Shown here: piece by piece, positions 5,339-44,973 of the stretch
Numbering within the stretch: position 1 is the stretch's first letter
Layout of the letters: each line of letters begins with the position of its first letter
Source: Halovenus carboxidivorans
GTDB taxonomy: Archaea > Halobacteriota > Halobacteria > Halobacteriales > Haloarculaceae
NCBI RefSeq assembly: GCF_009831575.1
Contig: NZ_WUUT01000003.1
Location: forward strand, 62,001 to 126,000
Direction: 5' to 3'
DNA length: 64,000 nucleotides
Position numbers and translations under genes: made by a program
Notes under the pieces: model-generated
Database searches by the model: none
The model's input: only the letters and a program-made list of their open reading frames with translations
Told to the model about the DNA's origin: nothing

Positions 5339-5339
5339 C

Positions 5340-6570: not shown

Positions 6571-6606
6571 ACCGGAGGGTGGAGGCGGACGAACAAAATG
6601 GTACGC

Positions 6607-6987: not shown

Positions 6988-7077
6988 ACGCCATTATGTT
7001 CTACCAGTGTCACTAAACTGTGGCGGTTCCTCCGAGACAACGACGGATTTTTGCCGCTCGGCCGCGCTCGCGGAGAT

Positions 7078-8052: not shown

Positions 8053-8065
8053 GCCCCCGCCGGGA

Positions 8066-8073
8066 CTTTTATA
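8066..8073 (+). promoter_or_regulatory. TATA box of the FtsZ-like gene
   Basis: CTTTTATA lies 22-29 bases before ATG 8095, the spacing of a leaderless haloarchaeal promoter. It sits in the short gap after purM, so this gene can be transcribed independently. Confidence 0.6.
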
Positions 8074-8094
8074 CTGCGGTCGTCAACGACGGGT

Positions 8095-9417
8095 ATGCAC
8101 GTCGCGGCCATCGGAGTCGGGGGCGCGGGCGGACGGATCGTCGACCGGCTCGCTCGGGATCTAGGGACGGGAACGGACGCACCGCTCACCGCCGTCCACG
8201 CGATCGATACTGACACGGAGACACTCGCGTCACTCGGTGCAGTTCCGAGGGAGAATCGCCACACGGTCGGACAGTTCGAGACCGGCGGCGCGGGGACCGA
8301 CGGCGACCGGAAGTTGGCGGCTGATATCGTCGATGAGGAGCGCATGGAGATCCGCCGCGCCGTCGAGGACGGGATTCCCACGACCGTCGACGCAATCGTC
8401 GTCGCGGCCGGACTGGCCGGCGGCACCGGATCGGCGGTGGCTCCGGCGCTGGCCGGCGGATTCGACCGGGTGTACGAACAGCCAGTCTACGCCGTTTCGG
8501 TCCTCCCCTCGGAGAGCGAGACCGACGACCGAGGGCGGGAGAACACCGCTCGCGGACTGACAGCGCTGAACGACGCCGCGACGGCACAGATCGTCTTCGA
8601 CAACGACGCCTGGCTCCCCGCGGAGCAGTCTCTGGAGGCGCACAGCGACACGCTCAACGCCGAACTGGTCGACCGTCTCGGTCATCTGCTCACGGTCAGT
8701 CAGGAGACCGACGGGGCCGTCGGTGAGCGCGTCGTCGACACCCGGGATATTATGGGGACGCTCGACGGCGGGGGGCTCGTCTCGCTGGGGTACGCGAGCC
8801 GTTCGATCGCGGCCTGGCGCGGCGATAGCTCCCTGCTGGACGGGCTGAAACGGCGAGTTCTCGGTGACGACACCGACGAGGTGGAACGCGGGCGGGCAGT
8901 GCAGCGAACACTTTCGTGGGCGACGAGAGGGACGCTGACCTTCGAGTCGCCGCGGAGCGGGGCCACGCGCGGACTGCTCGTCTTCCGCGGTCCGCCGGAG
9001 TGGCTCCGCGGCGACGCCATCTCGAAGGGCCGGGAGTGGTTCGCCGACCGGACGGGGATCGAACAGCTCCGAAGCGGTGACTGTCCGGTCTCGGGAGCCG
9101 ACACGCTCGATGTCCTCGTCGTCCTCGCGGGCATCGAGAACGCCCCGCGTATCGAGGCGTTCAGTCTGGACTCCGGCTCCTCCGATCCCAACGCCGACCA
9201 CGCGGGGGACGAGGACGCGCCAGAGGACAGTGACGCGACGGAGGGCGGCGACACGGCGGGAGATGAACAGGGAGGCGAGCGTGACAGCGAGGGCTCCGGG
9301 GTGCAGTCGGAGCCCGACGACGACGGTACGGCGACCGGATCCGACGCGGAGGGAGGATCCGTCGATAATCCTCCCACCGAGGTCGGTTCCGTTACTGAGG
9401 ATCGTGACAACGAATAA
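8095..9417 (+). CDS. Divergent FtsZ/tubulin-superfamily protein with acidic tail
   Basis: A 440-residue protein. The N-terminus IGVGGAGGRIVD matches the first nucleotide-binding loop of FtsZ/CetZ. GLAGGTGSA (106-114) corresponds to the tubulin signature GGGTGSG with substitutions. A later DTRDIM segment is in the place of the T7 catalytic loop. From about residue 360 the chain is a low-complexity Asp/Glu/Ser/Gly tail. It fits neither canonical FtsZ1/FtsZ2 nor CetZ well and looks like one of the non-canonical archaeal FtsZ-like proteins. GTP binding is likely; polymerisation and role are unknown. Confidence 0.75.
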   Translation: MHVAAIGVGGAGGRIVDRLARDLGTGTDAPLTAVHAIDTDTETLASLGAVPRENRHTVGQFETGGAGTDGDRKLAADIVDEERMEIRRAVEDGIPTTVDAIVVAAGLAGGTGSAVAPALAGGFDRVYEQPVYAVSVLPSESETDDRGRENTARGLTALNDAATAQIVFDNDAWLPAEQSLEAHSDTLNAELVDRLGHLLTVSQETDGAVGERVVDTRDIMGTLDGGGLVSLGYASRSIAAWRGDSSLLDGLKRRVLGDDTDEVERGRAVQRTLSWATRGTLTFESPRSGATRGLLVFRGPPEWLRGDAISKGREWFADRTGIEQLRSGDCPVSGADTLDVLVVLAGIENAPRIEAFSLDSGSSDPNADHAGDEDAPEDSDATEGGDTAGDEQGGERDSEGSGVQSEPDDDGTATGSDAEGGSVDNPPTEVGSVTEDRDNE

Positions 9418-25836: not shown

Positions 25837-27231
25837 ATGTCCTACAATCCATTCAGCGCTGCGCTCGACGCGCACACGAACACGCTCGACGCTATCGCGG
25901 ACGCGACGGAAAACGCCGCCCGCCTGCCAGAGCAGGCCGAGACGATCAACAACATCGACGTCGGGATGACCCCGTCGGAGGTCGTCTACGAGGAGAACAA
26001 ACTGGAACTGCTGCACTACCAGCCCGAAGAGGCGGGTATCGACGTTCCCGAGGACGAGCAAAACGAGGTGCCCATCCTCATCGTCTACGCGCTGATCAAC
26101 AAGCCGTTCATCCTCGACCTCCAGCCGGACCGCAGCGTCGTCCGACGGCTGCTGGAAGCGGGCCACAACGTCTACATGATCGACTGGAACGAGCCCTCGC
26201 GGCTCGACCAGCACCTCGGCCTGCACGATTACATCAACCGCTACGTCGACAACTGCGTCGACGAAGTGCGCGACCGCTCGGGCCAGGAGAAGATCAACAT
26301 CCTCGGCTACTGCATGGGCGGCACCTTCAGCGCCATCTACACGGCGCTGTACCCCGAGAAGGTCAACGCGCTGGCGCTGATGGCCGCCGGGCTGTACTTC
26401 GACGACACCGGCGGCGTGCTCGAACGCTGGGGCAGCGAGGAGTACTACGATCCCGCCGCCGTCGTCGACACCTACGGCAACGTCCCGTCGACGATGCTGG
26501 ACGACGGCTTCAAGATGACCGATCCGGTCGACAACTACGTCCGGAAGTACATCACCCTCTTCGAGAACCTCGACAGCGACGACTTCGTCGAGAACTTCGC
26601 CCGGATGGAGCGCTGGCTGGACGAGGGGATCGATCTGGCCGGTGACGCCTACGTCGAGTTCCTCCGGGAGATCTATCAGAGCAACAGCCTCTACCGAAAC
26701 GAGATGGAACTCGACGGCGAACACGTCGACGTCACCGAGATCACGGTGCCGATCCTCCAGATCATGGGCGAGTACGACCACCTCATCCCGCCGGAGGCAT
26801 CGAAGCCGTTCAACGACGTGGTCGGCACGCCCGACGAGCAGATCACGACCATCGAGTACCCCACGGGCCACATCGGCATGTCGGTCTCGGGATCGACCCA
26901 CGCCGAAGTCTGGCCGCAGGTCTGCGACTGGTTCCACGAGGTCTCGAAGGACGACGCCGAAGCCAGCGTCAGCGAGATGCAGGAGGAGGCCGCCGCGAGT
27001 ATCGAGGTCGAGTCGACCGACGACGCGGAGAGCGACAGCGACGACGAAGCGAGCGACGGCGAGGCTACGGACCTCGAATCGATCGAGGGGATCGGTCCGA
27101 CCTACGCTGACCGCCTCCGCGAGGCCGGCATCGAGACGCCGGCAGATCTCACCGAGCACACCGCCGACGAACTCGCGGACATCGCGGAGACCAGCGAGTC
27201 GCAGGCCGCCGAGTGGCTCGAACAGATCTAA
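25837..27231 (+). CDS. phaC: Class III PHA synthase PhaC with C-terminal helix-hairpin-helix domain
   Basis: A 464-residue alpha/beta-hydrolase synthase. The lipase-like box is GYCMGG with nucleophile C159. The other triad members are D314 (GEYDHLIPP) and H345 (YPTGHIGMS). It polymerises (R)-3-hydroxyacyl-CoA on the granule surface together with PhaE. After an acidic Asp/Ser linker, residues about 411-464 form a helix-hairpin-helix unit ([17 protein letters not shown], then [16 protein letters not shown]) of the kind found in DNA-binding and protein-docking proteins. It ends in a 4-base overlap with the convergent btpA-like gene. Confidence 0.94.
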
Positions 27232-30518: not shown

Positions 30519-33230
30519 ATGGCAATAGATGAAACGGGCGGGTCAGAAGACGACAGCTCCGGGGTAGGGGTCCGCTTCGACGAGAGCGTGACCCTCGGGG
30601 AGTACTCCTGGAGCGACTTTCGCCGGGACGAACACGACGAGGGGCGGTTCGACCGGAGCAAGTATCTGGGGTTCGATCCCCGCGATACCGGCCGCCGCCT
30701 GCAGGCCGGCGCGAGCGGGGCGAAGACGCTCAACCAGATCGTCGAACGCTACCGGGATCCCGCGAGCCGTGACGTCATCAAAGGGGAGTACACCTGGGAA
30801 CATTTCAAACAGGAGTACTACTACGACGAGGAGGGGCTTCCACCGCGAGAGGACGGCGAGAAGATTCCGTTTCGTCCGGAGGAGTATCTCGGCTTCCACC
30901 CGGAAGAGACCGACCAGCGGTTGGGGGCCGCTGGCGACCGGGCGTCGAAACTCGCCGAGATTGTCGAGGAACGGACGGTCAACGTCAACGAGGAGGTGGA
31001 CGAGGATGCGTTTTTCTCTACCCGTGGCGGCGGGATGACCGTCGCGAACCGATACGACCTGGAGAAGGCGGTGCCGATGGAGAAGAAGACACACTTCATC
31101 GAACAGGACCGCTACTGGGTGAACAAACCGTACGCTTTTATCGTCATCTTCAAATCGCAGAAGGAAAACGAGATCAAGTACTACGTCGTCGAGCCACATC
31201 TCAACTCCATCGAGGAGGAGTTACTCGACTTTCTCTCACAGAAGCTCAAGACGGCGATCAAATACTCCGAGGACGAGGTCATCGTCCAGGGGAGCGAGGC
31301 GGACCGCGCGGAGGTCATCCAGCGCGAGGCCGAGCGGTTGCTCCGGCGGTACGACCTCTACGAGGGGCGCTCGAAGGCACAGCGGCAGTCACCGACGACC
31401 GAGAGCGAGCGCGGCGGGTTGATGGACTCGTTGCGGGGCGCGTTCGGCGGCGACGAGACGAACAACGGGGCCGACCCGCCGGACGTTCGAGCCGACGAGG
31501 CAGACCCGCCGGCGGTCCAGGGCGAAGCGGCTGACCCGCCGGCTGGGTCCGAGGAATCCGGCGGGCCGATGGAGTCGCTGAAAGGGTTGTTCGGCGGTGA
31601 CGAAACGAACAACGGGGCCGCGAGCGCGGGCCAACCCACGACCATCCAGGCGGCCGAACGACAACTCGAAGGCATCTCGGTCCGCCCGGAGCCAGCGATC
31701 ATCGAGGACGATCCCGACACGCTCAGCGAGTACCAGGTCGAGAAGTTGTTGTACGTCCTCAAACGCAACTTCATCGGCTACTCCCGCATCGACCCGATCA
31801 AACACGACATCAACGTCGAGGATATCTCCTGTGACGGCTACAACAGCCGGGTGTTCGCCTATCACACCGACTACGAGCAGATCATCACCAACGTCAAACA
31901 CGGCAAGGAGGAACTGGACGATTTCGTCGTCAAACTGGCCCAGCGGTCGGGCAAAGGCATCTCGAAACGCCAGCCCCAGGTCGACGCGACGCTGCCGGAC
32001 GGCTCGCGTGCCCAACTCACCCTCGGTGCCGAGGTGTCCGACCACGGGACCAACTACACCATCCGCCAGTTCAAGGACGTACCGTTCACGCCCGTCGATC
32101 TGATCAACTGGAACACGTTCAACCTCGACGAGATGGCCTTCCTCTGGCTCTGTATCGAGAACCACAAGTCGCTCATCTTCGCCGGCGGGACGGCCTCTGG
32201 GAAGACGACCAGCCTGAACGCGGTGTCGCTGTTCATCCCCTCCAGCGCGAAAATCGTCTCCATCGAGGACACCCGCGAGGTCGAGTTGCCCCAACGCAAC
32301 TGGGTCGCGAGCGTCACTCGCCCTTCCTTCGGCGAGGACGACACCGGCGACGTCGACGAGTTCGACCTGCTGGAGGCGGCGCTCCGCCAGCGCCCGGATT
32401 ACATCGTGATGGGTGAGATCCGTGGCGAGGAGGGCCGAACCGCCTTCCAGGTCATGTCCACCGGGCACACCACCTACACCACCTTCCACGCCGACTCCGT
32501 CGGTGAGGTAATCAAACGCTTCACCACCGACCCGATCAACGTCTCGAAGACGCTGTTTACGGCGCTGGATCTCGTCTCGATTCAGACACAGACGCGGGTG
32601 GACGGCCACAAGGTCCGCCGGAACAAGGTCCTGACGGAGATCAACGAGTACTCACCGGAGAACGACGAGATCAACGTCCGGGACGTCTACGAGTGGCGCG
32701 CCGAGACGGACAACTTCATCCAGATGGGATCATCCTCGACCCTGGAGGAGATCAAGTTCGACCGCGGCTGGTCCGACGAACGGCTCAACGAAGAGCTATT
32801 CAAACGGAAGACGGTGCTCGCCTACCTCATCCAGAACGGGCTGAACACCTACACCGAGGTGGCGGCGACGGTCCAGGCGTTCATCAACGATCCGGAGACG
32901 ATCCTCGCCATCATCGCACAGGACAAACTGGAGCGCTCGCTGGAGGACCTTCGGGAGATGGAGTCCGTCAAGATCGATGTCGATCCCGAGGAGGAGGACA
33001 TGGTGCCGCGGCCGGATCCCGGCGAGGAACTTCTCGTCGAGACCGACGAGATTCTCTCCCAAGCCGAGCCGCTCCTCCAGCAGTACCGCGACATGGAGAC
33101 CGGAGATCTGGTCGCGGCGCTGTCGGGAGCCAACGATACCGACGAGATCGAACCCGACCCGGAGGAGGACAGCGGGTTCGACTTCGGCCAGTTCGTGCCG
33201 AAAGCGGGCTCGGAGGCTGAGGAGGAATGA
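30519..33230 (+). CDS. Type IV pilus-like secretion ATPase (PilB/TadA family)
   Basis: A 903-residue ATPase that powers pilin assembly. The N-terminus has a duplicated motif (residues about 27-78 and 89-152, each with EYxW near the start and YLGFxP inside). A low-complexity linker follows (about 290-370) with MxSLxGxFGGDETNNGA twice. The catalytic core has Walker A GGTASGKTT (K562), an Asp box and Walker B IVMGEIRGEEGRT (E633), and the His-box HTTYTTFHAD. It overlaps the membrane-platform gene by 4 bases. It is longer than usual because of the N-terminal region and linker. ArlI is excluded by the gene neighbourhood. Confidence 0.92.
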   Translation: MAIDETGGSEDDSSGVGVRFDESVTLGEYSWSDFRRDEHDEGRFDRSKYLGFDPRDTGRRLQAGASGAKTLNQIVERYRDPASRDVIKGEYTWEHFKQEYYYDEEGLPPREDGEKIPFRPEEYLGFHPEETDQRLGAAGDRASKLAEIVEERTVNVNEEVDEDAFFSTRGGGMTVANRYDLEKAVPMEKKTHFIEQDRYWVNKPYAFIVIFKSQKENEIKYYVVEPHLNSIEEELLDFLSQKLKTAIKYSEDEVIVQGSEADRAEVIQREAERLLRRYDLYEGRSKAQRQSPTTESERGGLMDSLRGAFGGDETNNGADPPDVRADEADPPAVQGEAADPPAGSEESGGPMESLKGLFGGDETNNGAASAGQPTTIQAAERQLEGISVRPEPAIIEDDPDTLSEYQVEKLLYVLKRNFIGYSRIDPIKHDINVEDISCDGYNSRVFAYHTDYEQIITNVKHGKEELDDFVVKLAQRSGKGISKRQPQVDATLPDGSRAQLTLGAEVSDHGTNYTIRQFKDVPFTPVDLINWNTFNLDEMAFLWLCIENHKSLIFAGGTASGKTTSLNAVSLFIPSSAKIVSIEDTREVELPQRNWVASVTRPSFGEDDTGDVDEFDLLEAALRQRPDYIVMGEIRGEEGRTAFQVMSTGHTTYTTFHADSVGEVIKRFTTDPINVSKTLFTALDLVSIQTQTRVDGHKVRRNKVLTEINEYSPENDEINVRDVYEWRAETDNFIQMGSSSTLEEIKFDRGWSDERLNEELFKRKTVLAYLIQNGLNTYTEVAATVQAFINDPETILAIIAQDKLERSLEDLREMESVKIDVDPEEEDMVPRPDPGEELLVETDEILSQAEPLLQQYRDMETGDLVAALSGANDTDEIEPDPEEDSGFDFGQFVPKAGSEAEEE

Positions 33231-35341
33231 GTCTCGAAACCAAACGACAGGCCGAAGAGACCCCCGACGACAACTCGCTGGGGGGCCGGTTCTACCCGCT
33301 GTACCGGCGGCTGTTCGACGACAACAGCGACTTCGTCAAGGGTGTCGAGAAGAAACTCGCACAGGCCCGGATGGCCGACAACGTCGAGTTGTTCATCTCG
33401 CGGGCGCTCGCGGTCGGGCTGATCGCCGGGCTCGGACTGTGGATTCTCGGCGTGTTGGTCGGCTGGCTGTTCCTGCAGTTGTTCGGCTGGAGCGGGCTGG
33501 TGCCGTTGCCCGACGCGCTCTCACAGGTCATCGACATCATCCGCGAACCGGCAATCCTGCTCCTCTCGGGGCTGATATTCGGCTCGATTGGCTTCGCGAT
33601 CGGGTTCGGCTCGCTCGTCGCCGTGCCGTATTTCCGCGCCAGCGCACGCGAACGCGAGATCAACATCCTCCTCGCTGATTCCGTCTCGTTCATGTACGCG
33701 CTGTCGGTCGGCGGCATGAACCAACTCGAAATTCTCCGCGCGATGGCGAAAGCCGACGACACCTACGGGGAGGTGGCCAAGGAGTTTCAATCGATCGTGC
33801 TGGAGACGGAGTATTTCGATACGGACTACCGGACGGCGATCCGAAACCAGGCGCTCGAAACTCCGAGCGACGAACTCTCGCAGTTCCTGACGGATATGCT
33901 CTCGATCGTCGACTCCGGCGGGGACATGACCGACTTCCTCGAAGACCAGAAGAACAAACAGCTCCGCACCGCCCAGCAGGAGCAGAAAAAACAGCTCGAC
34001 ACCCTGGAGCTGTTCGGCGAGATGTACATGACGCTGTCGCTGTTCCCGCTGCTTTTGATCATCATCCTGGTCATCATGGGGCTGATGGGCAACGGACTCG
34101 ACCGCTTCCTGCTGAACGGGACGGTCTACGGTCTGATCCCGCTGATCGGCGCCGCATTCCTCGTCCTCGTCTCGACCGTCACTCAGGACGAGATCGGTGA
34201 CGGCTACCTGCGACCCGAGGCCGACGAGGAGTTCACTGTCGACGAGGGCATCGGCGTGTTCAACCCCGGGCTCGTCGAGCGGTACACCGGCGACAAGCAG
34301 GTCTTCGACCAGATCAAACGCCGCGAGGGGACCCACGAACTGATGGAGATTCTCCGGTCGCCGCACACCTTCTTCAAGGACCATCCGAAGCTCATCCTGC
34401 TCGTGACGACGCCGGTGACCGCGCTCGTCATGATCGGACTGGTGGTCTCCGGTGCCGCCCCGACGTCGATCGACGGCATCCAGGCCAGCCCGGTCTGGGG
34501 GACGTTCGTCTGGATGTATCTACCGATCTATCTCAACATGCTCCCGCTCGCGGTCTTTCACGAGTGGAACGTCCTCTCCCGGAAGGGGGTGCTCGGAAAC
34601 CTCTCGGAGAACCTGCGAAAGCTCGCGAGCGCGAACGACACCGGGATGACGCTGCTCGAATCGATCAAGACCGTCTCGGAGACTTCCTCCGGAAAGCTCG
34701 CGGAGGAGTTCGAGGCGATGCACGCCAAGGTCAACTACGGGACGAGTCTGAAGGACGCGCTCCGGGAGTTCAACAACAAGTACCATCTCCCCCGGTTGGC
34801 CCGGACGATCAAACTCATCAGCGAGGCACAGGAGGCCTCCAGCCAGATTCAGGACGTGCTCTCGACGGCCGCGGTCGCCTCGGAGAACCAGGACGAAATC
34901 GCCCGCGAACGGAAAGCCCGGACCCGGATGCAGATGGTCATCATCATCATGACCTTCCTGACGCTGCTGGCGGTGATGGGCCTGCTCCGAGTGCAGTTTC
35001 TCGACACGATGGCGTCGCTTGGCAGTGCTGGCAGCGGAGCGAACAGCGAGGCGGCCGGCGGAGAGTTCGGGGCCAACATCGAGACGGGTTATCTCTCGAT
35101 GGTCTTCTTCCACGCGGTGACGATTCAGGCCGTCGTTTCGTCGTTCATCGCGGGCTACATCCGGAGCGTCGAACTGATGGCCGGGCTGAAATACGCCGTC
35201 GTGCTCGCGACGATCACGCTGATCACGTGGACCGTCGTCGAACAGGTCTCCAACCCACAGGAGACGGCGGCCCTGCTCCTCTTTGTCGGCTCGACCGGCC
35301 GGTCGTATTTAACCTCTCAAACGAGAAACTCAAAACACTGA
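33227..35341 (+). CDS. TadC-like pilus platform membrane protein
   Basis: A 704-residue membrane protein, partner of the upstream ATPase. It carries two T2SSF/TadC-like helical domains (about 145-240 with SVSFMYALSVGGMNQLEILRA-like sequence, and about 465-555 with LASANDTGMTLLESIKTV). Each is followed by hydrophobic segments, about eight to ten in all. The duplication of the F domain is usual for haloarchaeal PilC proteins. It forms the inner-membrane base on which pilins are polymerised. Five small pilin-like genes follow. Confidence 0.9.
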   Translation: MSLETKRQAEETPDDNSLGGRFYPLYRRLFDDNSDFVKGVEKKLAQARMADNVELFISRALAVGLIAGLGLWILGVLVGWLFLQLFGWSGLVPLPDALSQVIDIIREPAILLLSGLIFGSIGFAIGFGSLVAVPYFRASAREREINILLADSVSFMYALSVGGMNQLEILRAMAKADDTYGEVAKEFQSIVLETEYFDTDYRTAIRNQALETPSDELSQFLTDMLSIVDSGGDMTDFLEDQKNKQLRTAQQEQKKQLDTLELFGEMYMTLSLFPLLLIIILVIMGLMGNGLDRFLLNGTVYGLIPLIGAAFLVLVSTVTQDEIGDGYLRPEADEEFTVDEGIGVFNPGLVERYTGDKQVFDQIKRREGTHELMEILRSPHTFFKDHPKLILLVTTPVTALVMIGLVVSGAAPTSIDGIQASPVWGTFVWMYLPIYLNMLPLAVFHEWNVLSRKGVLGNLSENLRKLASANDTGMTLLESIKTVSETSSGKLAEEFEAMHAKVNYGTSLKDALREFNNKYHLPRLARTIKLISEAQEASSQIQDVLSTAAVASENQDEIARERKARTRMQMVIIIMTFLTLLAVMGLLRVQFLDTMASLGSAGSGANSEAAGGEFGANIETGYLSMVFFHAVTIQAVVSSFIAGYIRSVELMAGLKYAVVLATITLITWTVVEQVSNPQETAALLLFVGSTGRSYLTSQTRNSKH

Positions 35342-35368
35342 TAACACCGGGGTGTGTGACGAGGAGGT

Positions 35369-35800
35369 ATGAACCGGCGGGGCCAGACAGCCTACGATTA
35401 CCTCCTCGGGATCGTACTGCTGTTGGTGACGATCATCACGGTACTGTCACTGTTCCCGCAGGTGTTCGGCCCGTTCGTCGAGCCAGTCTCTTCGGATCAG
35501 GAGAAGATGGCCGACCGGGTCGCGTCCGACGTGATCGAGACGACGGCGCTCGGCGGAACCGAGCGGACGATCAACGCGAGCGAACTCGACGACCTGGCCG
35601 TCGAACAGGCGAAATCAGAGGCCGGACTCCGGGAGATCCGCAGCGTCAACGTCTCGCTTCAGCGGGGGGCTGAACCGGTCGTGGGGGCGGGTGATCGACA
35701 GCGCGACGGAGAGCCGTCGGCAGTCGTCGTCCGGACGGTACAGACCGCCGAGGGCGGCGCGTGTCGGACCGGCTGTCAACTCGTCGTGCGGGTGTGGTAA
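35369..35800 (+). CDS. Pilin-like protein 1 with class III signal-type N-terminus
   Basis: A 143-residue protein. The start MNRRGQTAYDYLLG is a prepilin-peptidase-type site (cut expected after RRG), followed by about 20 hydrophobic residues, then a polar ectodomain with N-x-S/T sequons and one Cys pair near the C-terminus (CRTGC). From memory it matches the family catalogued as DUF7287; I could not check this. Likely an accessory pilin of the adjacent ATPase/platform pair. Confidence 0.78.
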   Translation: MNRRGQTAYDYLLGIVLLLVTIITVLSLFPQVFGPFVEPVSSDQEKMADRVASDVIETTALGGTERTINASELDDLAVEQAKSEAGLREIRSVNVSLQRGAEPVVGAGDRQRDGEPSAVVVRTVQTAEGGACRTGCQLVVRVW

Positions 35801-35801
35801 G

Positions 35802-36377
35802 ATGCAACCGATGGAGCACAACCGTGGACAGGCCTACGCGCTCGAAGGAATCATCGGGGCGATTATCGTCGTCTCGGCGCTGGTGTTGGGGCTGCAGGCG
35901 GTCGATATCGCACCGTGGACCGGCAGCCAGACGCTCGATAGCTCCGAGACGCGTACCGAGGTTGCCGACATGCTGGCGGTCGCGGAGGACGCGGGCGCCC
36001 TGCAGGAGGCGGTCACCTGCGTCGACGACGACGGCGACCCCCACCCCGATGTCGCCGCGACCGAGGACAACGTCTCGGAACTCGGTGCCATCCTCAACCG
36101 GACTCTCGAAAGTCAGTACAGCTACCGGATCGCGGTCGGTGTCGACGGCACCGAGACACAGATCGGACCGACTCCGTCGCTCCCGAACACCGACACCGTG
36201 ACCGCCTCCCGGACGGTCGTCCTGTCGGATACCGATCCCGTCTACGAAGTCGACCCGCAATCAGAGCAGTGCCGACCCGCCGGCACCCTCGAAGACGCCG
36301 GTGATCTGTACATCGACGACCAGCACGGAGACGAGAGCCTCTACGCGGTGGTCCGAATCAGGGTGATCGCGTGGTGA
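35802..36377 (+). CDS. Pilin-like protein 2 with one N-terminal helix
   Basis: A 191-residue protein. HNRGQAYALEGIIGA starts a hydrophobic helix of about 20 residues directly after RG, as in archaeal prepilins, and a beta-rich ectodomain follows. Two Cys residues (TCVDDD and SEQCRP) could pair outside the cell. I chose ATG 35802, 1 base after the previous stop; ATG 35811 is an alternative. It recalls the family listed as DUF7288 (from memory). It overlaps the next gene by 7 bases. Confidence 0.75.
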   Translation: MQPMEHNRGQAYALEGIIGAIIVVSALVLGLQAVDIAPWTGSQTLDSSETRTEVADMLAVAEDAGALQEAVTCVDDDGDPHPDVAATEDNVSELGAILNRTLESQYSYRIAVGVDGTETQIGPTPSLPNTDTVTASRTVVLSDTDPVYEVDPQSEQCRPAGTLEDAGDLYIDDQHGDESLYAVVRIRVIAW

Positions 36378-37231
36378 GCCGACGCCGACAGCGGGGCCAA
36401 CTGGTCCTGATCGCGGCGATTCTGGTCGCGACGGCGGTCCTCGGTGCGGTCGTCCTGCTGAACGCGGTCCACAGTTCGCCGGACGTGAAAGCCCAGACGG
36501 ACGCACAGAGCCTCTCGACGGCAGACCGGACGGTCGGAGACATCCGACAGGATCTCAGAGACCTCTTTTTCGGGACCAACGGAACCGACGCTCAGTATCC
36601 GTTCGCGACGGCGAGTGATCTCGGAAACGCCACCGGGGCCTACAGCAGCGACCTCGCCGCGGTCGTCTCCAGGGATAGCCCCGCCGTCACCGCGGTGGAA
36701 CTGCTTCCGGCTGAGAGTACGACCGGCGGGTTCGTCTCCGGGGCGGTGCCGACCTCGAACACGTCAGTCATCGAGAACGCGAGTTCGCTCCCCTACCTCT
36801 CGATCAACGCGTCGGCCGCCGCGACTCCCCGTATCACCATCGTCCGGACGGCCGCACCGGACAGGGAAATCGTCCTCGACGGATCGAGCACCGAGTACGA
36901 CGACCGGACCGGCGACCGACGCGAGTGCGACGACATCTCCGGGCGAGCGCGGCTGGAACTGACCCGTGGCTCGGGGGCGATCCGCGGCGAAGACGGCGCT
37001 GTCTGTGAGGTGTTCGTCTACGATCCGACACAGTCGAGTGAATACGACGTGGCTATCGACGCCGCCAACGGCGACGGCCGGTTCAACGCCAGCGGGGGCG
37101 GTACTCCCGTCCTCACCGGTGACCGTCGGCACACCGGGGTCGTCGTCAACCCGACGTTCGAGGTGACCTACCGGGACCCCAGCGTCACCTACCGTGGCAA
37201 CGTCACGCTGTTCCGGGGTGATCGGCGGTGA
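36371..37231 (+). CDS. Pilin-like protein 3
   Basis: A 286-residue protein starting with GTG. SRRRQRGQLVLIAAILV gives a basic end, an RG|Q junction and a hydrophobic helix of about 20 residues. The ectodomain has many N-x-S/T sequons (NTSV, NASS, NASA, NATG) and two Cys. It recalls the family listed as DUF7261 (from memory). Overlaps with both neighbours point to translational coupling in the pil operon. No catalytic motif seen. Confidence 0.72.
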   Translation: MVSRRRQRGQLVLIAAILVATAVLGAVVLLNAVHSSPDVKAQTDAQSLSTADRTVGDIRQDLRDLFFGTNGTDAQYPFATASDLGNATGAYSSDLAAVVSRDSPAVTAVELLPAESTTGGFVSGAVPTSNTSVIENASSLPYLSINASAAATPRITIVRTAAPDREIVLDGSSTEYDDRTGDRRECDDISGRARLELTRGSGAIRGEDGAVCEVFVYDPTQSSEYDVAIDAANGDGRFNASGGGTPVLTGDRRHTGVVVNPTFEVTYRDPSVTYRGNVTLFRGDRR

Positions 37232-37677
37232 CCGACCGCGCCGTCTCGATTGCGCTCACGCACGCACTGACCGTCGCTATCTCGACGGTTCTGGTTTCGG
37301 GGTTGATAATCGGCGCCGGAACCCTGCTCGAATCCCAGGAGCAAACCGTCGGTGAGACCCAACTCAGAGAGATCGGAAGCGACGCGGTGACCTACATCAA
37401 CACGCTCGACCGGTTGAACCGAACCGGCGAGAACGTCACCGTCACCGCGGAACCGGATTATCCGGAGCGGATCCTCGGTTCGTATCGGTACACGATCGCC
37501 ATAGAGAACCGCACCGGGAGCAACACGCTGGTGGTCCGGTCCGAACAACTCGGCCGGTCCGTCGAGTTCGACATCGAAACCCGCACCAACGTCACGAGTT
37601 CGGGCACCAGCGGTGGCGACGTGGAGATCAGCCTCTGTGAGGGCGACCGACTCACGCTCGCGGGGTGTGGCTCGTGA
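37228..37677 (+). CDS. Pilin-like protein 4
   Basis: A 149-residue protein starting with GTG. TDRAVSIALTHALTVA leads into one long hydrophobic helix (about residues 5-30), then an extracellular-type domain with sequons and two C-terminal Cys (LCEGD, AGCGS). It recalls the family listed as DUF7266 (from memory). It overlaps the genes on both sides by 4 bases. Function beyond pilus assembly or accessory pilin is unknown. Confidence 0.72.
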   Translation: MTDRAVSIALTHALTVAISTVLVSGLIIGAGTLLESQEQTVGETQLREIGSDAVTYINTLDRLNRTGENVTVTAEPDYPERILGSYRYTIAIENRTGSNTLVVRSEQLGRSVEFDIETRTNVTSSGTSGGDVEISLCEGDRLTLAGCGS

Positions 37678-38534
37678 GCGATTCAGACCGGTATTCGGCA
37701 CCGACACCGAACCGCGCGGTGTCAGATGTCGTCGCCTTCGTGCTCACGTTCGCGATCATCATCGCCGGCGTAGGCCTCGTCTCCACGGGCGCATTCGACC
37801 GACTGACCGCGTTTACCGACGAACAGCGGATCGACAACGCCGAGCGCGGTATGGAAGCCGCGGCCTCGACCATCGACAGTCTCGGCCGCGGCAACGACAC
37901 CTACCGCGAGTTCGCCCTCTCGCTGAGCGGCGGGAACGTCTGGTTCAGAAACAGCACCATCACCATCGAAAACAGCAGTGCGAACCTCTCCCGTCTACCA
38001 GGCGGCAGTGCCGACAGCGCGGATATTCCGGTGAACGCGCTCGAACACCGGTTCGAGTTCGGCGGCGAGACGGTCCGGATCACACACGAGGGGGGCGGTG
38101 TCTTCCGTACCGATACGGCCCGCCCGCGATACGACCCGGCCATCACCGTCGAAGACGGCACGCTCATCGTCTCGCTGATCAACCTGACCAGCGACGAGAC
38201 AATCGACCGCTCGGGAACGTACGACAGTAATCTCGCCCTCGACCCGACCGGCGTTCCGACGGAGGCACCGGTCTCCGCGGACAAACAGTTCGTCAGTTTC
38301 AGCGCGGAACTGATCGGCCAGCGGCGAGTCTACAACTCGACGGTCGACGACCCCGATATCACCGTCGACGTTTCCGCGTCTGCGAGCCCCGAACAGTGGG
38401 GGTATTTTTTCAGCGAGGCGGAGGGCTGGACCTCGACCGGCGACGCGACGTACACGCCCGACGAGCGGATCGACACCGTCCTGATCCGGGTCTCGACGAT
38501 CCGGCTCTCGACGCCGCCGCGGCGGACGACGTGA
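37674..38534 (+). CDS. Pilin-like protein 5, paralogue of the giant protein's N-terminus
   Basis: A 286-residue protein starting at GTG 37674. After SAPTPNRAVSDVVAF comes a hydrophobic helix (about 18-42), then a helical stretch and a beta ectodomain. HEGGGVF (138-144) followed by ITVEDGTLIVSLINLTS, and a later EQWGYFFSEAEGW (W242), line up with YQGGGVF, VSEGNLDLDFVNLSS and DGWGALVREAVES in the 2077-residue protein downstream. The two are therefore paralogous. It recalls DUF7289 (from memory, unchecked). It is the last of the overlapping small genes; a 205-base gap with a promoter follows. Confidence 0.75.
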   Translation: MSDSDRYSAPTPNRAVSDVVAFVLTFAIIIAGVGLVSTGAFDRLTAFTDEQRIDNAERGMEAAASTIDSLGRGNDTYREFALSLSGGNVWFRNSTITIENSSANLSRLPGGSADSADIPVNALEHRFEFGGETVRITHEGGGVFRTDTARPRYDPAITVEDGTLIVSLINLTSDETIDRSGTYDSNLALDPTGVPTEAPVSADKQFVSFSAELIGQRRVYNSTVDDPDITVDVSASASPEQWGYFFSEAEGWTSTGDATYTPDERIDTVLIRVSTIRLSTPPRRTT

Positions 38535-38704
38535 CCCCGGACCGCCGACTGCCTCCTGTGAGCCGCCGCCGCGGGGCCTCCGTCCTGTTTTATGTTAACA
38601 ACTCACATTATTCCGTCCGTTGTTTTCAGCTCTGAAATCGAACGATACCGCTCTCGGCCCGGAATATCAGGAGGCAGTGAACAAAATTGAATCCGGACAA
38701 TGGA

Positions 38705-38713
38705 TTTTTTAAA
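38705..38713 (+). promoter_or_regulatory. TATA box of the giant adhesin gene
   Basis: TTTTTTAAA lies 27-35 bases before ATG 38740. The gene therefore has its own leaderless-type promoter although it ends the pil gene row. The 38535-38700 stretch in front is AT-richer than its surroundings and contains no ORF I can support. Confidence 0.6.
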
Positions 38714-38739
38714 CGGGTGTTCCGTTGTATGCCGTAATC

Positions 38740-41700
38740 ATGAGGGCCCCGTTGGATCCGACGGACACTCGCGGAATCTCCGAGATCTACGGGACAGTCC
38801 TCATCATCTCGCTGGTCTTTCTCGTCGCCTTCTCCCTCGTCGGCGTCGGTGTGTTCATTCTCGGCGACACGACGGCCGACGCGAACGACCGACTCGCACA
38901 GGACGCGGTCCTCGAACTGGACGACCGGGTGAGCGCTCTCACGGCGGATCGCGTCGAGAACTCGATCACCTGGGAGGTCCCACAGGGCACCGCCGAGGAT
39001 TTCGAGGCCAACGGAACGCGGGGCACGATTAACGTCACCGTACGGACGAACGATACGTACTGGACCTGGGGGAACTCCAGCGGGTTAGTCGACTCGCCCG
39101 TCCAGGCGAACGCCACGGGTGAGATCCCGCTGGGAACGATCACCCACCGGAGCGAAGACGGCGTCCTGACGGTGTATCAGGGCGGGGGCGTCTTCGAGAT
39201 CCAGGACGGCACGGTGACCGTGTTGCGCGAGCCGGAGATCTCCGTCTCGGAGGGGAATCTCGATCTCGATTTCGTCAACCTCTCGTCGGTGGATCAGATC
39301 GACGGCAGCGAGTTGACTGCGACACAGCGCCGGACCCAACCCGACTCCGCCGAGATCCAGCAGATCGTGGACGCCCAGATGCGCCGGGACGGGAACCTCG
39401 TCGCCCCGGCCAGGGTGAATCTCACGATCACGAGCGAGTTCGCCGACGGCTGGGGCGCTCTCGTCCGGGAGGCGGTCGAGAGCCGTCCCGTCACGGTCTG
39501 GGATCACACCGACCTCCCGGAACTGGCGACGAACCAGGTCAAGATCGGCTTCGGTGAGTTCGGACGGGGCGTCGATCTCCCCGACGAGCGTAGCCCCTAC
39601 GCTCCCGGAGTGATCTACAGCGGCGTCGCCGACCTCGCGCCCGAACTGTACAACTGGAGCGCCGGGACGATTCGCGAGCGCGCCGGTGGCTTCAACGTCA
39701 GCGCGAACGGCGGCAACGAGTACACCGTCGGCCTCAGGTACGACCACGACGGGGACGGCGCCGACTGGTGGAAACTCAACGCGAGCAATCAGTGGGTGAA
39801 CATCGAGGACCCCATGGCCGCGCCGCTGGGGCCGGACGAACCCCGTCCCGTCAGCGTCGACCCCGCGAACGGCGTCTTCAGGATGGATGACGACGCCTGG
39901 ACGTGTGTCGTCAGTCACGCTCCCAGCGCCTCGGAGCCGCTGCGGTCACAGGTCAACCGGACGGGGAGTGGCTGTTTCGTCGACCCGGTCGGCGTCGAGA
40001 ATCCCGACGACAGCGTTGCCGAGTTCAGTCCCCTGCTCGAAATCACTGGCCTGAGCGTACGCGGCCCCGCGAGCAAACAACTGGCCTTCGGTACCGACCG
40101 CCTCCAGGTGGCGGTAAACGTCACGAACACCGGAACGGGCGATGCGGACAGCGGAGAGCCGACTGCCATGCTTGCCGATCCGGACGGCGGCGATCCGTGG
40201 GTCGCCGACGGAACCCGACTGAACGCCAGCAGCCCGTTGTCTCGCGGTGAATCGGCCACGTACTCGTTCAGCTACACGCCGCAGTTCCTCGGTGATCGAT
40301 TCCGGGTCCGCGCCGGCACTCCCGACGACGCTGCCGGAAACGACACGTGGTGGGAGATCACGAAGACGCCGGACGCCGAGCCGTTCGAGATCGAACGCGT
40401 CACCGTCCGCAACAGTCCCATCGTCGCCGGCGACGTCCTCAAAGTCGATGTCACGGTCAACAACACCGGTGACAGCCGAGACGAACAGACAGTCATCCTC
40501 TCGGACCGTGCGGGGCCACAGGCGACCGCGACGTACAACCTCAGCGCGGGTACCGAACGGACGAAGACCATCGAGTGGGACACCGAGGTCGGGGACGGGA
40601 ACCGTAGCAACAAGTCGATCAATATCTCGACGCTGACCGACCGCGAGTCAGCGACGGCGATCATCCGCAAGCCGGGACTGGCGTCGGCCGACTTCGAGAT
40701 CGACCGCGTCGAGATCGACGATCCGGTCACCGAGGGCAACGACCTCGAAGCCGAGGCGACGATCACCAACGACGGCAGCGACACGGGCACGCGGACCGTC
40801 CGTCTGCGAGACGACAACGGCGTGATCCGCGCGACCGTCCCCGATCTGACGCTCGATCCCGGCGAAACCGTCACCCTCGGCAGTTCGGCACCGCCGCTGG
40901 TCTGGGAGACCGATACGGGCGATACCGGCGTCTACGATCTGACCGTGGAGACCGACGACGACACCAACACGACGACCGACGTGGAGATCACGACACCGAC
41001 CGGCGTCGGGACGTTCAACGTCTCGATTGCCGAGAGCGGCCTCGACGACGTGATCGCCGGCGACGACCTCGAAGTCCCGGTCACTATCGAGTACAACGGC
41101 GGCGGAACGCGGACCGAGAGCATCTGGTTGACCGATTTCGACGGCGAACCGGTCGACGCACGGACCGTCTCACTGACCAGCGGGAGTTCCGTGCGCCGGA
41201 CGCTCGTCTGGGAGACCGAGGCCGGAGACGGACAGCACGCCCCCGGAACGATCACGGCAAACGGTGTCGACGACACAGACAGCGCGAGCGTCGAGGTCCG
41301 ACCGGAGGACGAGGCGGGTCCGAGTTACACCATCACGTCGGTTTCGACGAACAGCTCAGTCGGCTCGAACGGATCGCTACCGCCCGATCCGACGACGGAG
41401 GGCGAGGATCTGGAGATCAACGTGACCGTCGAGAACAGCGGCACCGTCCTCGGGACCGAGAGCGTCGTCGTCGAGTACGTGCCGGAGGACCGCCCGGTCG
41501 CTACGAGGGAGGTGAGCATCCCCAGCGGGGCCAGCAAGACTGTCACCCTCACCTGGGAGACAGTGGTCGGCGACAACACGACGACGCCGTCTAATCCACG
41601 GAACGCCGAAGACATCGAAATCCGAGTTGCCGGCGAAACAGCCCGCGAGACGGTCTTTATCGACAACCGAACCGTGCGGCGCGATCCGGTCGACGTGATG

Positions 41701-44700
41701 TTCGCCATCGACGAAACCGGCTCGATGGGCGTGCCGGCCGCGTACTCCCGGAGCGGGATGGAGCCGACGCCACAGCTCACCCTGGGCGCCCAAGCCACTG
41801 GAGACAGCTACGAATCGAACGACGAACTCGGGGCTGCCGCATCGATTCCCACCGGGACATACGCCGATCTCCTGATCGCAAACGGGGAGAGTGATTACTT
41901 CGCCGTCACGCTCAACGAAACCGAGTCACTCGACGCCGCGATCGGCTTCGACGACGACGCCGGCAACCTCGAACTCGAACTGTACGGCCCGACCCAGCGG
42001 CTTCTGGACAGCAGTCGCTCCTCCGGCGAGGGCGAATCTGTCTCGGTGTCGGACGTGACCGAGGCTGGCACGTACTACGTCCGTGTCTACGGCGACGGGA
42101 CTGACTCCGCAGAGTACGACCTGTTCGTTCAGTCCGGGGACAGGTCAAACGACGACTACGAGCCGAACGACGATATCGGGGCGGCACAGCCGCTCGGAAG
42201 CGGGGAGTATCGGGATCTGCGGATCGCCAACGCCGAGAGCGACTTCTTCGCCGTCTCGCTGAACGACAGCGAGTCCCTGCGCGGTTCGATCGACTTCGAC
42301 AACGACATCGGCGATCTCGACCTGGTGCTGTACGATCCGGAGGGCGACCTGATCGACGCCGGGTACGGCTCGGAGAGCGAATCTGTCTCCGTCTCGAACG
42401 TGAGCGAGGCCGGAACCTACTATCTCAGGGTTTACGGAGACGACGGCGCCTCCGCACCGTACGCCCTCGACATCGAGACCGGTAGATCCGTCTCCGACGA
42501 GCGGTTCTCGTACGACTCCCCCCTGTTCGAGGAGCCGGTCACTCCAGCGGGTGAGGAGTTCCTCTACGTCAGACAGCGAAACGAGATCTACGAACAGGGC
42601 GAGCAGTTCGACATCCCGTACCGCTACCGCTCGAAGGTCTGGCCGGGCAAGCGGCTCACGAACGCGACCGACGTTCCAGCGGAGGCAGATCTGTGGTACG
42701 CACTCCCCGAAACTGGCGGCGACGTCTCCGGCGAGGTCGAAAACCCCGGTACCGAAGGGACGTTCTACGTCTCCGGACAGACCGTCGATCCGGCAGACCA
42801 CGGCGGAGCGGCCTACGTCGTCAATCTCAGCGACCGGTACTGTTCGGCGCTCTGTTACGACAGCACCGGCCAGCGGTACGACGCCGTCCTCGCGGCACTG
42901 AGCAGTCTGAGCCAACCGCTCGGCGATCGGGCGGGACTGTTGGAGTTCAACCTGAGCCAGAACGTCTACCAACCACTGACGAACAACCTCTCCGCAGTCG
43001 AGCAGTCCCTCCGGGTCAATCCCGGCGGCGGCACGGACATCACGAACGCCATCCTCGAAGCCCAGGAACAACTCAACCGGACCGCCGACCCGAACCGGAA
43101 GGCAATCGTGTTGCTCACCGACGGGGAGCACAACGCGCGGGACGTGGCGCCGCCGAGCGAGCGGGTGGACGAGATTGCCGACAACGTGACAGTCTACGTC
43201 GTCGGTTTCGGCAGCGCAGACACCAGCTCCGACGGTGAACTCGCGACCGTTGCCAATGCCGGGACCGGGGAGGGCAAACTGTACGACGGCAACGACGACG
43301 ATCTCGAAGAGATCTTCGCTCAGATCGGCGAGGAACTGGACGAACCCGACCTGCCGAACGTGCAGGTGAACACCGACAGCACCCTCCAGGTCAAGGAAGG
43401 GGAGACGCTTCAGGTCCCCGTCGGCGTCGAAAACACCGGCGCGGGCGGCGAACGGATCATCACGGTGACCGATATCTACGGCAATATCGTCGACAGCACG
43501 ACTGTGTCACTGGCCGCGGGCGAGCGGATCAACGCCAGTGACCCGGCCGCGCCGGTGCTCGAATGGGACGCCGACCTGCAGGGCGAGGAGCCACCGACCA
43601 GCGGCGAACTGCTCGTCCGGACGCCGAGCAGCGAGGCGACGCCGAACGTGACCGTCACGGAGGGCGATCCCTCGGAGTTCGCCGTCACGATCCAGAGCGT
43701 CACACCGACCGACCCGCAGGCGACCGACGAGATCAACGTGACGGCCAGGATCGAGAACCGACTACCCGGCCCGGATACGCAGACCGTCGTGCTACGCGAC
43801 GACGAGGGCAACCCTGTCGACGTTCAGACGGTGCGTCTCGACGGCGCTGACGGCCCCAACAGCGCGACGACGACCAGTTTCACGTGGAAGACCCGTCCGG
43901 GTGACTCCGGAACCGGACAGACCCTCACCGTCGAGAGCGACGACACCGCCGATACGACCACGGTCGACATCGACCGCGCCCCCGGCGCGGACGACCAGTT
44001 CGACGTCGAAATCACCGGCACGACCGCCCCGACCCTCGCCGGAAACGAGACCGACGTCGAGGTGCGCGTCGAGAACGTCGGCTCCGATCCCGGCCAGCAG
44101 TTCGTCGAACTCCGGAACTTCGACAACAACACGGTCGATCTCGTCGAGACGCGGACGCTGAGCCCCGGCGGGACCGAAACGTACACACTGACGTGGAACA
44201 CCACTGTCGGCGACGCCGGTACCGGCAACGTCTACGCGGTCACACGGGACGACGCCGACGGCGAGGCGGTGACGATCCGCCAGGTGACCGGGCCGAACTC
44301 GACGTTCGAGATCGTCGACGCTGATGCGGTCAACAGCACGGTAACCGCGGGCGATCCCGTCGAGATCACGGCGGAGATCGAGAACACCGGCGTCGATCCG
44401 GACAGCCAGTTCGTCGAGGCGACCTTCGACACCGTGACCAAGACAGCGAACATCTCCGACCTCGATCCGGGGGCTCGGAGTACTGTTACTTTCCAGTTCG
44501 GGACGGCGACCGGTGCTGTCAACTCCTCGCAGACGTTCGATATCGATCTCGAAACCGAAGACGACAACGAGACGGTGTCGGTGACGGTCGAGCCGGCGGG
44601 TGCGCCGCTGCAGGTCGACATCGTGGGGACGGGCGATCCGGTCCGAGCCGGCGAGGCTCTGCCGGTGACGGTCGAGGTGACGGGATTGGACTCGACCAGC

Positions 44701-44973
44701 ACCCTCTCGCTCGAAACGCCGTACGGCGGAGCCCTCAACCCGACGAATATCACGACGATCAGGAGTAACGGAACATACACGATCACGTGGCCGACGCTGC
44801 CCGGACAGGGCGATCCGAACCCGCAGTCCGTCGTCGCTCGCGTGCGCGGGAGGACGAGCGATCCCGCGGCCGTACGCGTCGAGGAGGCTCCCGAGGGTGA
44901 TGTCGTCGCCCCCGGGACCGGTCCGAGCGCGGATCCGGTCGGGATCGATATCGACGAGATCGAGATCAACTGA
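38740..44973 (+). CDS. Giant pilin-like adhesin: CARDB repeats, split VWA domain, PPC pair
   Basis: A 2077-residue secreted protein. TRGISEIYGTVLIISL is a class III signal-type start with one hydrophobic helix (about 13-42). Residues to about 330 resemble the preceding pilin-like protein. Five CARDB-like Ig repeats follow (about 450-975, with NVTVxNxG strands). A VWA domain starts at about 985 with metal motif DETGS (D991, T993, S995). It is interrupted by two PPC-like domains (about 1022-1127 and 1138-1247) and a 120-residue spacer. It resumes at about 1370 with GGGTDIT (T1432) and LLTDGEHN (D1461), ending near 1535. Five more CARDB-like repeats fill the C-terminus. There is no C-terminal anchor. 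Glycosylation sequons abound. Likely a pilus-tethered adhesin; function inferred. Confidence 0.82.
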   Translation: MRAPLDPTDTRGISEIYGTVLIISLVFLVAFSLVGVGVFILGDTTADANDRLAQDAVLELDDRVSALTADRVENSITWEVPQGTAEDFEANGTRGTINVTVRTNDTYWTWGNSSGLVDSPVQANATGEIPLGTITHRSEDGVLTVYQGGGVFEIQDGTVTVLREPEISVSEGNLDLDFVNLSSVDQIDGSELTATQRRTQPDSAEIQQIVDAQMRRDGNLVAPARVNLTITSEFADGWGALVREAVESRPVTVWDHTDLPELATNQVKIGFGEFGRGVDLPDERSPYAPGVIYSGVADLAPELYNWSAGTIRERAGGFNVSANGGNEYTVGLRYDHDGDGADWWKLNASNQWVNIEDPMAAPLGPDEPRPVSVDPANGVFRMDDDAWTCVVSHAPSASEPLRSQVNRTGSGCFVDPVGVENPDDSVAEFSPLLEITGLSVRGPASKQLAFGTDRLQVAVNVTNTGTGDADSGEPTAMLADPDGGDPWVADGTRLNASSPLSRGESATYSFSYTPQFLGDRFRVRAGTPDDAAGNDTWWEITKTPDAEPFEIERVTVRNSPIVAGDVLKVDVTVNNTGDSRDEQTVILSDRAGPQATATYNLSAGTERTKTIEWDTEVGDGNRSNKSINISTLTDRESATAIIRKPGLASADFEIDRVEIDDPVTEGNDLEAEATITNDGSDTGTRTVRLRDDNGVIRATVPDLTLDPGETVTLGSSAPPLVWETDTGDTGVYDLTVETDDDTNTTTDVEITTPTGVGTFNVSIAESGLDDVIAGDDLEVPVTIEYNGGGTRTESIWLTDFDGEPVDARTVSLTSGSSVRRTLVWETEAGDGQHAPGTITANGVDDTDSASVEVRPEDEAGPSYTITSVSTNSSVGSNGSLPPDPTTEGEDLEINVTVENSGTVLGTESVVVEYVPEDRPVATREVSIPSGASKTVTLTWETVVGDNTTTPSNPRNAEDIEIRVAGETARETVFIDNRTVRRDPVDVMFAIDETGSMGVPAAYSRSGMEPTPQLTLGAQATGDSYESNDELGAAASIPTGTYADLLIANGESDYFAVTLNETESLDAAIGFDDDAGNLELELYGPTQRLLDSSRSSGEGESVSVSDVTEAGTYYVRVYGDGTDSAEYDLFVQSGDRSNDDYEPNDDIGAAQPLGSGEYRDLRIANAESDFFAVSLNDSESLRGSIDFDNDIGDLDLVLYDPEGDLIDAGYGSESESVSVSNVSEAGTYYLRVYGDDGASAPYALDIETGRSVSDERFSYDSPLFEEPVTPAGEEFLYVRQRNEIYEQGEQFDIPYRYRSKVWPGKRLTNATDVPAEADLWYALPETGGDVSGEVENPGTEGTFYVSGQTVDPADHGGAAYVVNLSDRYCSALCYDSTGQRYDAVLAALSSLSQPLGDRAGLLEFNLSQNVYQPLTNNLSAVEQSLRVNPGGGTDITNAILEAQEQLNRTADPNRKAIVLLTDGEHNARDVAPPSERVDEIADNVTVYVVGFGSADTSSDGELATVANAGTGEGKLYDGNDDDLEEIFAQIGEELDEPDLPNVQVNTDSTLQVKEGETLQVPVGVENTGAGGERIITVTDIYGNIVDSTTVSLAAGERINASDPAAPVLEWDADLQGEEPPTSGELLVRTPSSEATPNVTVTEGDPSEFAVTIQSVTPTDPQATDEINVTARIENRLPGPDTQTVVLRDDEGNPVDVQTVRLDGADGPNSATTTSFTWKTRPGDSGTGQTLTVESDDTADTTTVDIDRAPGADDQFDVEITGTTAPTLAGNETDVEVRVENVGSDPGQQFVELRNFDNNTVDLVETRTLSPGGTETYTLTWNTTVGDAGTGNVYAVTRDDADGEAVTIRQVTGPNSTFEIVDADAVNSTVTAGDPVEITAEIENTGVDPDSQFVEATFDTVTKTANISDLDPGARSTVTFQFGTATGAVNSSQTFDIDLETEDDNETVSVTVEPAGAPLQVDIVGTGDPVRAGEALPVTVEVTGLDSTSTLSLETPYGGALNPTNITTIRSNGTYTITWPTLPGQGDPNPQSVVARVRGRTSDPAAVRVEEAPEGDVVAPGTGPSADPVGIDIDEIEIN

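Follow-up and report, generated by a model that had tools for sequence, protein, structure and literature searches.

The locus described here raises the question of what a pilus assembly system does with a terminal gene that encodes a protein of 2,077 residues. It lies at positions 30519–44973 of a 64,000-nucleotide stretch from Halovenus carboxidivorans (contig NZ_WUUT01000003.1, positions 62,001–126,000; the whole analyzed stretch is referred to as the window), in a haloarchaeal genome of 3.25 Mb, and consists of eight open reading frames (ORFs) arranged head to tail on the plus strand. We identify it as the Halovenus copy of a near-universal haloarchaeal pilus locus, best matched by the published PilB4-type system, and its last gene as that of an expanded pilin, hereafter the giant. 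Both identifications are firmer than our reading of the whole, which we consider fairly probable: that of a PilB4-type pilus whose last gene would encode a tip-displayed, exchangeable modular adhesin.

A preliminary description of this DNA, made from the sequence alone, proposed a pilus-like locus of seven to eight genes at this place, and ORFs and Pfam agree with it, as all eight proteins are matched by Pfam (Table 1). The genes for the secretion ATPase and the platform are adjacent. Overlaps of 4–7 bases, proposed for the whole series up to the last gene, were found at four of the seven junctions (1/2, 4/5, 5/6, and 6/7, by 4, 7, 4, and 4 bases, the last of these presuming the GTG start at 37674), and gaps of 27 and 1–10 bases at PilC/DUF7287 and DUF7287/DUF7288. 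In all six pilin-like proteins a hydrophobic stretch follows an R[GA] junction in the manner of class III pilins. The junctions, described as RG-type or similar, read RG in four (starting at 35369, 35802, 36371, and 38740) and RA in the other two (37228 and 37674). The last protein is, as proposed, both a giant and itself a pilin, with a class III N-terminus and homology to DUF7289. No locus pilin passes the PF07790 cut-off (the DUF7289 pilin scores 18.4 bits for Pilin_N, under the cut-off), so a conventional major pilin is indeed absent from the locus. This does not make the locus odd: PilB4-type systems have a predicted major pilin among their local pilins (PMC4858521). The comparative genomics suggested in the preliminary description recovered the same gene order in other genomes, and the locus is therefore not a chance arrangement.

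PilB4-type loci are characterized by an ATPase with extra N- and C-terminal domains and by a pilin set of their own (PMC4858521). In agreement with this, the window ATPase is considerably longer than the PilB3-like ATPase of the same genome (903 versus 549 residues) and has extra terminal parts. It scores 34 bits for PilB3_C (above the cut-off) and 17.6 for PilB3_N (under the cut-off), and its top NCBIfam match is the archaellum FlaI motor model, under the cut-off of that model. With PilB3_N under its cut-off and local pilins present, the locus does not resemble a PilB3-PilA system. Of 145 class genomes, 137 contain DUF7287, as does H. volcanii, which served as control. As a copy of a near-universal haloarchaeal pilus locus, the locus is thus not new as a machine. 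The DUF7289-type giant family probably corresponds to arCOG02911, a pilin family described as variable in length (approximately 250–550 residues) and duplication-prone (PMC4858521). A 2015 review of archaeal type IV pili suggested that PilB4-C4 builds a structure with two relatively large pilins (PMC4371748).

Five more PF00437 matches are present elsewhere in the genome. One of these proteins has strong PilB3_N and PilB3_C matches and a platform neighbor, and is the PilB3-like ATPase on these grounds; a further one, with a weakly matching platform as its neighbor, probably serves the archaellum. Ten PF07790 pilins above the cut-off are encoded outside the locus, and the genome has a prepilin peptidase match (PF06847, 34.6 bits with frame neighbors, cut-off 29.9). 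The platform next to the PilB3-like ATPase is a 1,025-residue frame ending in DUF7282 (L066, 8946–12020, minus strand), an apparent fusion. The same genome contains a second DUF7287–7289 cluster (L100, G000:C4:172000-191900, 3787–9144), followed by a convergent 654-residue DUF7289-type frame of ordinary size, with another ATPase (L069) approximately 10 kb further along. Two frames of 776 and 847 residues (L008 and L009, at C4:181216 and C5:24590 of this genome) have a PF07790 pilin N-terminus followed by repeat or immunoglobulin (Ig)-like sequence, showing that large pilins occur on the PilA-type scaffold too.

The relation of the giant to DUF7289 emerged from the alignment of two profiles, one of 16 giant N-termini and one of ten DUF7289 pilins. 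PF23960 is not above its cut-off in the window giant; it is at the N-terminus of two of five relatives in one set (L054 and L056) and of eight of nine in another. With this homology and its VWA, PPC, and CARDB domains, the giant is a modular pilin and, as judged from sequence, an expanded DUF7289 pilin. The model of a relative (L077) has helices at residues 12–42 and 46–68, Foldseek with this model gave no match at E ≤ 0.001, and PDB sequence searches with pilin alignments A1 and A2 gave none at E ≤ 0.1. PADLOC returned no match for the three sequences tried.

The giant N-terminal model matches 141 of the 145 genomes of the class, and the full length is matched in only three. Most haloarchaea have a relative of 450–880 residues, often adjoining the locus. 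Among the matches listed, 106 genomes have both a giant-like pilin and DUF7287, and in 76 of them the two lie at most 10 kb apart; 84 of 96 DUF7287-linked giant-like genes are on the opposite strand, with frames mostly of 450–880 residues. In Halovenus and relatives the giant mostly has 1,400–2,300 residues and carries CARDB stalks together with either VWA or a GLUG-type module; the Halovenus gene is on the operon strand and approximately three to four times longer than its ordinary relatives. It is located directly 3′ of DUF7289 on the same strand in 10 of 14 other genomes read, which had been selected because their N-terminal matches were the best. G054, G050, and a second G018 cluster share the gene order, with a terminal gene that is convergent (open frames of 505–571 residues); the stretch of the G018 cluster showed no ATPase or platform. 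The closest named relatives of the giant are from Halovenus (H. salina, H. aranensis, and H. rubra). On contig G031:C1 (L056/L065) a giant lies between two DUF7287–7289 clusters, the upstream one on the same strand and weakly similar, the downstream one convergent and strongly similar.

The remainder of the giant is built of two CARDB stalks on either side of a VWA domain, within which two PPC domains are nested (Table 1). Alignment A5 predicts D991, T993, S995, T1432, and D1461 as the metal-site residues of the VWA domain, the first three forming the D-x-[ST]-x-S pattern of the metal ion-dependent adhesion site (MIDAS). From the first MIDAS motif to the LLTDG sequence there are 473 residues in the window giant versus 106–263 in the six other VWA giants among the 16 giant-type proteins studied first, and the extra length contains the two inserted PPC domains. 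In the nearest relative (L063/L071), 60% identical over this part, the insert is shorter and lacks PPC, and L072 has no insert. With the AlphaFold model of the window giant, of low confidence (mean predicted local distance difference test score, pLDDT, 53.9), Foldseek matched the PPC part to the tandem collagen-binding domains of ColG (E 1.4e-10) and the VWA part to that of Rpn10 (template modeling score 0.61 by target). The only match of the VWA region in a PDB sequence search was the proximal thread matrix protein (E 8.8e-4). In one 844-residue frame (L036, G030:C1:1252564-1254294) the PPC part of the giant is matched four times in tandem, with overlaps; this frame may represent a source type of the PPC insert. 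CARDB-like matches to the giant occur in a 4,879-residue open frame in a genome of another family (L030, G036:C46).

The central module differs between relatives. Seven of the first 16 giant-type proteins carry VWA, six a GLUG-type module, and two neither; one more has neither but is truncated at the end of its contig. On a tree of the N-terminal domain with 31 of 37 proteins (L090, L095, L096, and L097 were left out because no N-terminus was detected, and L091 and L058 because of long branches), the VWA label requires five changes, of which at least four are forced by starred branches, and the GLUG label four, of which at least three are so forced. One VWA change may reflect a missed label, since L088 is labeled as having neither while its sister L089 has VWA. 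The GLUG labels come from a short pattern; Pfam Glug is above the cut-off in L062, L095, and L096, and not in L064 and L054.

Exchange is further suggested by a conflict between the tree of the giant and that of its own locus. In a backbone tree of the seven other locus genes (2,708 columns, ten genomes), the window groups with L055 (genome G013) with a support of 100/100. L055 is the most similar of the ten loci to the window for PilC, DUF7287, DUF7261, DUF7266, and DUF7289, and is tied for the highest ATPase identity (80%); for DUF7288, L053 is higher (55% versus 52% for both L055 and L054), and a DUF7289 fragment of L063, from outside the ten-locus set, is 57% identical to the window versus 54% for L055. 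The giant N-terminal domain, however, groups with L048–L050 (support 90/92, not starred). In approximately unbiased (AU) tests, with the groups named once the identities had been seen, the giant tree rejects window + L055 (p = 1e-7) and the locus genes reject window + L048–L050 (p = 0.0011). Window and L055 share both flanks, an Lrp-type regulator and an aminotransferase upstream, and an aminoacyl-tRNA synthetase and a methyltransferase downstream (gene names assigned by eye). The synthetase and methyltransferase of L055 are 82.5 and 70.6% identical to those of the window, the highest of the loci found. Since locus genes and both flanks follow L055 and the giant does not, the giant alone departs. 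The simplest reading of this conflict between syntenic flanks would be that the giant gene was replaced as a cassette between relatives, with the rest of the cluster in place.

The giant ends in a conserved tail. A similar short end motif after a flexible stretch was recognized by eye in 13 of 14 complete proteins of the first set, the exception being L061 (448 residues). A profile of 12 giant tails, with an 11-letter register set by hand (L060, one letter short, was excluded), was applied to 19 held-out proteins of the class. In 11 of the 15 with at least 900 residues, the C-terminus was the top of all sampled sequence windows; it was high but not top in L086, L088, and L096 (10/240, 3/174, and 2/254 windows equally good), and the profile failed in L083 (87/232). 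It was top in none of four proteins of 500–632 residues, of which L082 had 6/107 windows equally good. By eye, the tail is similar to the last strand of DUF7289, and to that of relatives of 500–600 residues. That it is the last strand of the pilin fold was considered and rejected, as the profile alignment takes giant residues 5–245 up to DUF7289 residue 260; given this reach, the final strand of DUF7289 may have its counterpart near giant residues 258–270 (by eye). In the L077 model, of low confidence, the tail was left unfolded and no docking was seen. Alignment A4, in which tail fragments were misplaced, was excluded from folding.

The giant gene is separated from the DUF7289 gene by 205 bases and may well have a separate promoter. 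The A+T content at −60 to −20 is 65%, and a value of at least 60% is reached in just 0.64% of the 40-mers of the window. At 20–60 bases upstream of 16 giant-type genes from high-G+C genomes it is 45–78%. Together with a TATA-like element (Table 1), the gap and the AT-rich stretch make the promoter that the preliminary description assigned to this gene plausible at the sequence level. Elsewhere in the window, an ORF at 25837–27231 (plus strand) resembles polyhydroxyalkanoate synthase (GYCMGG box), with a C-terminal extension that by eye is helix-hairpin-helix-like.

Table 1. Features of the pilus locus and of the giant, in window coordinates.
Feature	Position	Strand	Evidence
PilB-type secretion ATPase, 903 residues, long N- and C-terminal extensions	30519..33230	+	PF00437, E 2.3e-31
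PilC/TadC-type membrane platform, 704 residues	33227..35341	+	PF00482, two stretches, E 1.9e-31
Small class III pilin DUF7287 (MNRRGQTAYDYLLG)	35369..35800	+	PF23958, E 2.1e-28
Small class III pilin DUF7288 (NRGQAYALEG)	35802..36377 (alternative start 35811)	+	PF23959, E 1.2e-39
Small class III pilin DUF7261 (QRGQLVLIAA)	36371..37231	+	PF23922, E 3.8e-8
Small class III pilin DUF7266 (DRAVSIALTHALT)	37228..37677	+	PF23928, E 2.6e-18
Class III pilin DUF7289 (NRAVSDVVAFVLT)	37674..38534 (GTG start 37674 or 37665)	+	PF23960, E 3.5e-29
TATA-like element TTTTTTAAA, ~30 bases 5′ of the giant ATG	38705..38713	+	Sequence
Giant modular pilin, 2,077 residues (TRGISEIYGTVLII)	38740..44973	+	ORF, Pfam domains, DUF7289 profile alignment
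DUF7289-type pilin domain, residues 5–245	38752..39474	+	hhalign versus DUF7289 alignment, probability 96.6%, E 5.1e-10
Second conserved N-terminal region, residues ~246–440	39475..40059	+	Alignment A1
First CARDB stalk	40087..41664 (limits by eye)	+	PF07705, E 2.2e-24, whole protein
First VWA strand and MIDAS D-x-T-x-S (D991, T993, S995)	41692..41724	+	Sequence, alignment A5
Two PPC domains within the VWA domain	41836..42480	+	PF04151, two stretches; model and Foldseek match
Remaining VWA domain (T1432, D1461)	42865..43359	+	PF00092, residues 1382–1525, E 3.9e-11
Second CARDB stalk	43372..44889 (limits by eye)	+	Pfam
Conserved C-terminal tail DPVGIDIDEIEIN	44932..44970	+	Comparison of giant C-termini

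In type IV pilus systems, prepilins are cleaved and then assembled by an ATPase-platform pair. Accordingly modeled, the prepilin peptidase would cleave the locally encoded small pilins, and the window ATPase and platform would assemble them into a type IV pilus. Through its N-terminal helix and pilin domain the giant would be part of the pilus. Its most likely position is the tip, which would tolerate a bulky C-terminal portion and which the giant may cap or join. For a protein of 2,077 residues a role as a repeating body subunit is unlikely, and a tip position appears more likely by analogy with other modular pilins. The Ig-like CARDB stalks would hold out the metal-dependent VWA domain, enlarged here by the two inserted PPC domains, and the VWA domain may bind a surface, a polymer, or another cell. 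Related strains would replace the whole giant gene or its central module (VWA or GLUG-type) by recombination, with the assembly and flanking genes staying in place. As only this gene or module would be replaced, binding specificity would change without a change of the machine. We also consider a more elaborate but doubtful version, in which the fixed haloarchaeal pilus locus is a display platform, the giant tip gene is swapped by recombination in its conserved flanks, altering what is bound (surface, polymer, partner cell, or mating partner), and the class-wide C-terminal strand docks the far end of the giant to the pilus again, the modules then forming a hanging loop instead of a free tail.

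Several points weigh against the tip adhesin. Adhesion and tip position are proposed by analogy, and functions other than adhesion are known for VWA domains. The two AlphaFold models (window giant and L077) are of low confidence, with a mean pLDDT of approximately 54. The PilB4-type assignment is made from architecture, gene set, and the published description, and the AU-test groups were chosen after the fact. The tree conflict could, moreover, arise from hidden paralogy, the family being described as duplication-prone (PMC4858521). Differential loss of old duplicates is the main alternative to cassette exchange: the giants would be an ancient set of paralogs, and the pilus and adhesin reading would be unchanged. 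Two giant-type genes on two contigs of G012 and two pilin clusters around the giant in both G031 and G018 fit such duplication, as does the reported behavior of arCOG02911, the probable counterpart family (PMC4858521). Yet in many genomes the position of the giant is constant, with the same neighbor genes on either side, and in the Halovenus stretches read it is single-copy there; we hold this alternative to be possible but on the unlikely side.

Other alternatives concern the filament itself. The local pilins could be minor components of a fiber whose body is a canonical PilA pilin encoded elsewhere. The ten PF07790 pilins outside the locus would be available for this, and archaeal ATPases can share pilin sets (PMC4858521; PMC6491452). 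The genome has, however, a separate PilB3-like ATPase with its platform, and in H. volcanii the PilA1-6 pili require PilB3-C3, with PilB4-C4 suggested for a different structure with two large pilins (PMC4371748), so that we find a shared PilA body unlikely. The preliminary description had also raised a secretion or adhesion device. Its adhesion part is plausible, because the giant has a VWA domain with MIDAS residues, and nothing was found that would favor secretion over filament assembly. A pseudopilus-like machine for secretion or surface display, with the short pilins as piston or cap and the giant as an exported or membrane-held surface protein, would fit the lack of a PF07790 pilin in the locus and a promoter region through which the dose of the giant may differ from that of the machine. 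Against this stand the class III N-terminus and the pilin domain of the giant, as well as the published account of PilB4-type loci as pilus systems with a predicted major pilin of their own (PMC4858521), and we regard such a machine as quite improbable.

Knowledge of archaeal pili comes mostly from their major pilins, and little of it concerns how they acquire their binding specificity. The family described here consists of very large archaeal pilins whose effector domains are modular and have been swapped repeatedly, at one constant location in the chromosome. It is a concrete candidate, open to testing, for the adhesive end of a pilus that nearly all haloarchaea have, and a counterpart in archaea of the modular pilins of bacteria. 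The C-terminal tail provides a precise target for structural work.

Among known systems, the tip proteins PilY1/PilC and TadG of bacterial pili are pilus-associated and bear a VWA domain, as does the giant. PilY1 itself is not known to be a pilin, unlike the giant, in which Pfam reported no beta-propeller family of the PilY1 type. TadG is mentioned in PMC4858521 as well. The VARTIG loci of Thermococcales encode, like the window locus, large and variable surface proteins with CARDB-like Ig domains, for which adhesion or self/non-self recognition has been proposed (PMC8416519); the excerpt does not describe them as pilus loci and mentions no class III pilin or ATPase-platform pair, in contrast to the locus described here. 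Bacterial modular pilins such as PilB of Streptococcus sanguinis present VWA modules, probably at the tip, and in PilB, too, a VWA domain with MIDAS residues comes after the pilin module at the N-terminus (PMC8179133). The giant differs from it in its archaeal pilin module, long CARDB stalks, PPC domains inside the VWA domain, GLUG swaps, and conserved C-terminal tail, and is far longer than the 860-residue protein at the extreme of the multi-domain pilins in that paper. The locus as such is like the PilB4-PilC4 locus of the H. volcanii HVO_1160 type, near-universal in haloarchaea (PMC4858521), in which arCOG02911 pilins have approximately 250–550 residues versus 2,077 for the terminal pilin here, the two being probably of one family. 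The architecture of the giant was not found described in the open-licence papers searched. The machine is already known; what distinguishes this copy is the giant, with its nested VWA and PPC domains, its swapped modules, and a tree that conflicts with that of its own locus.
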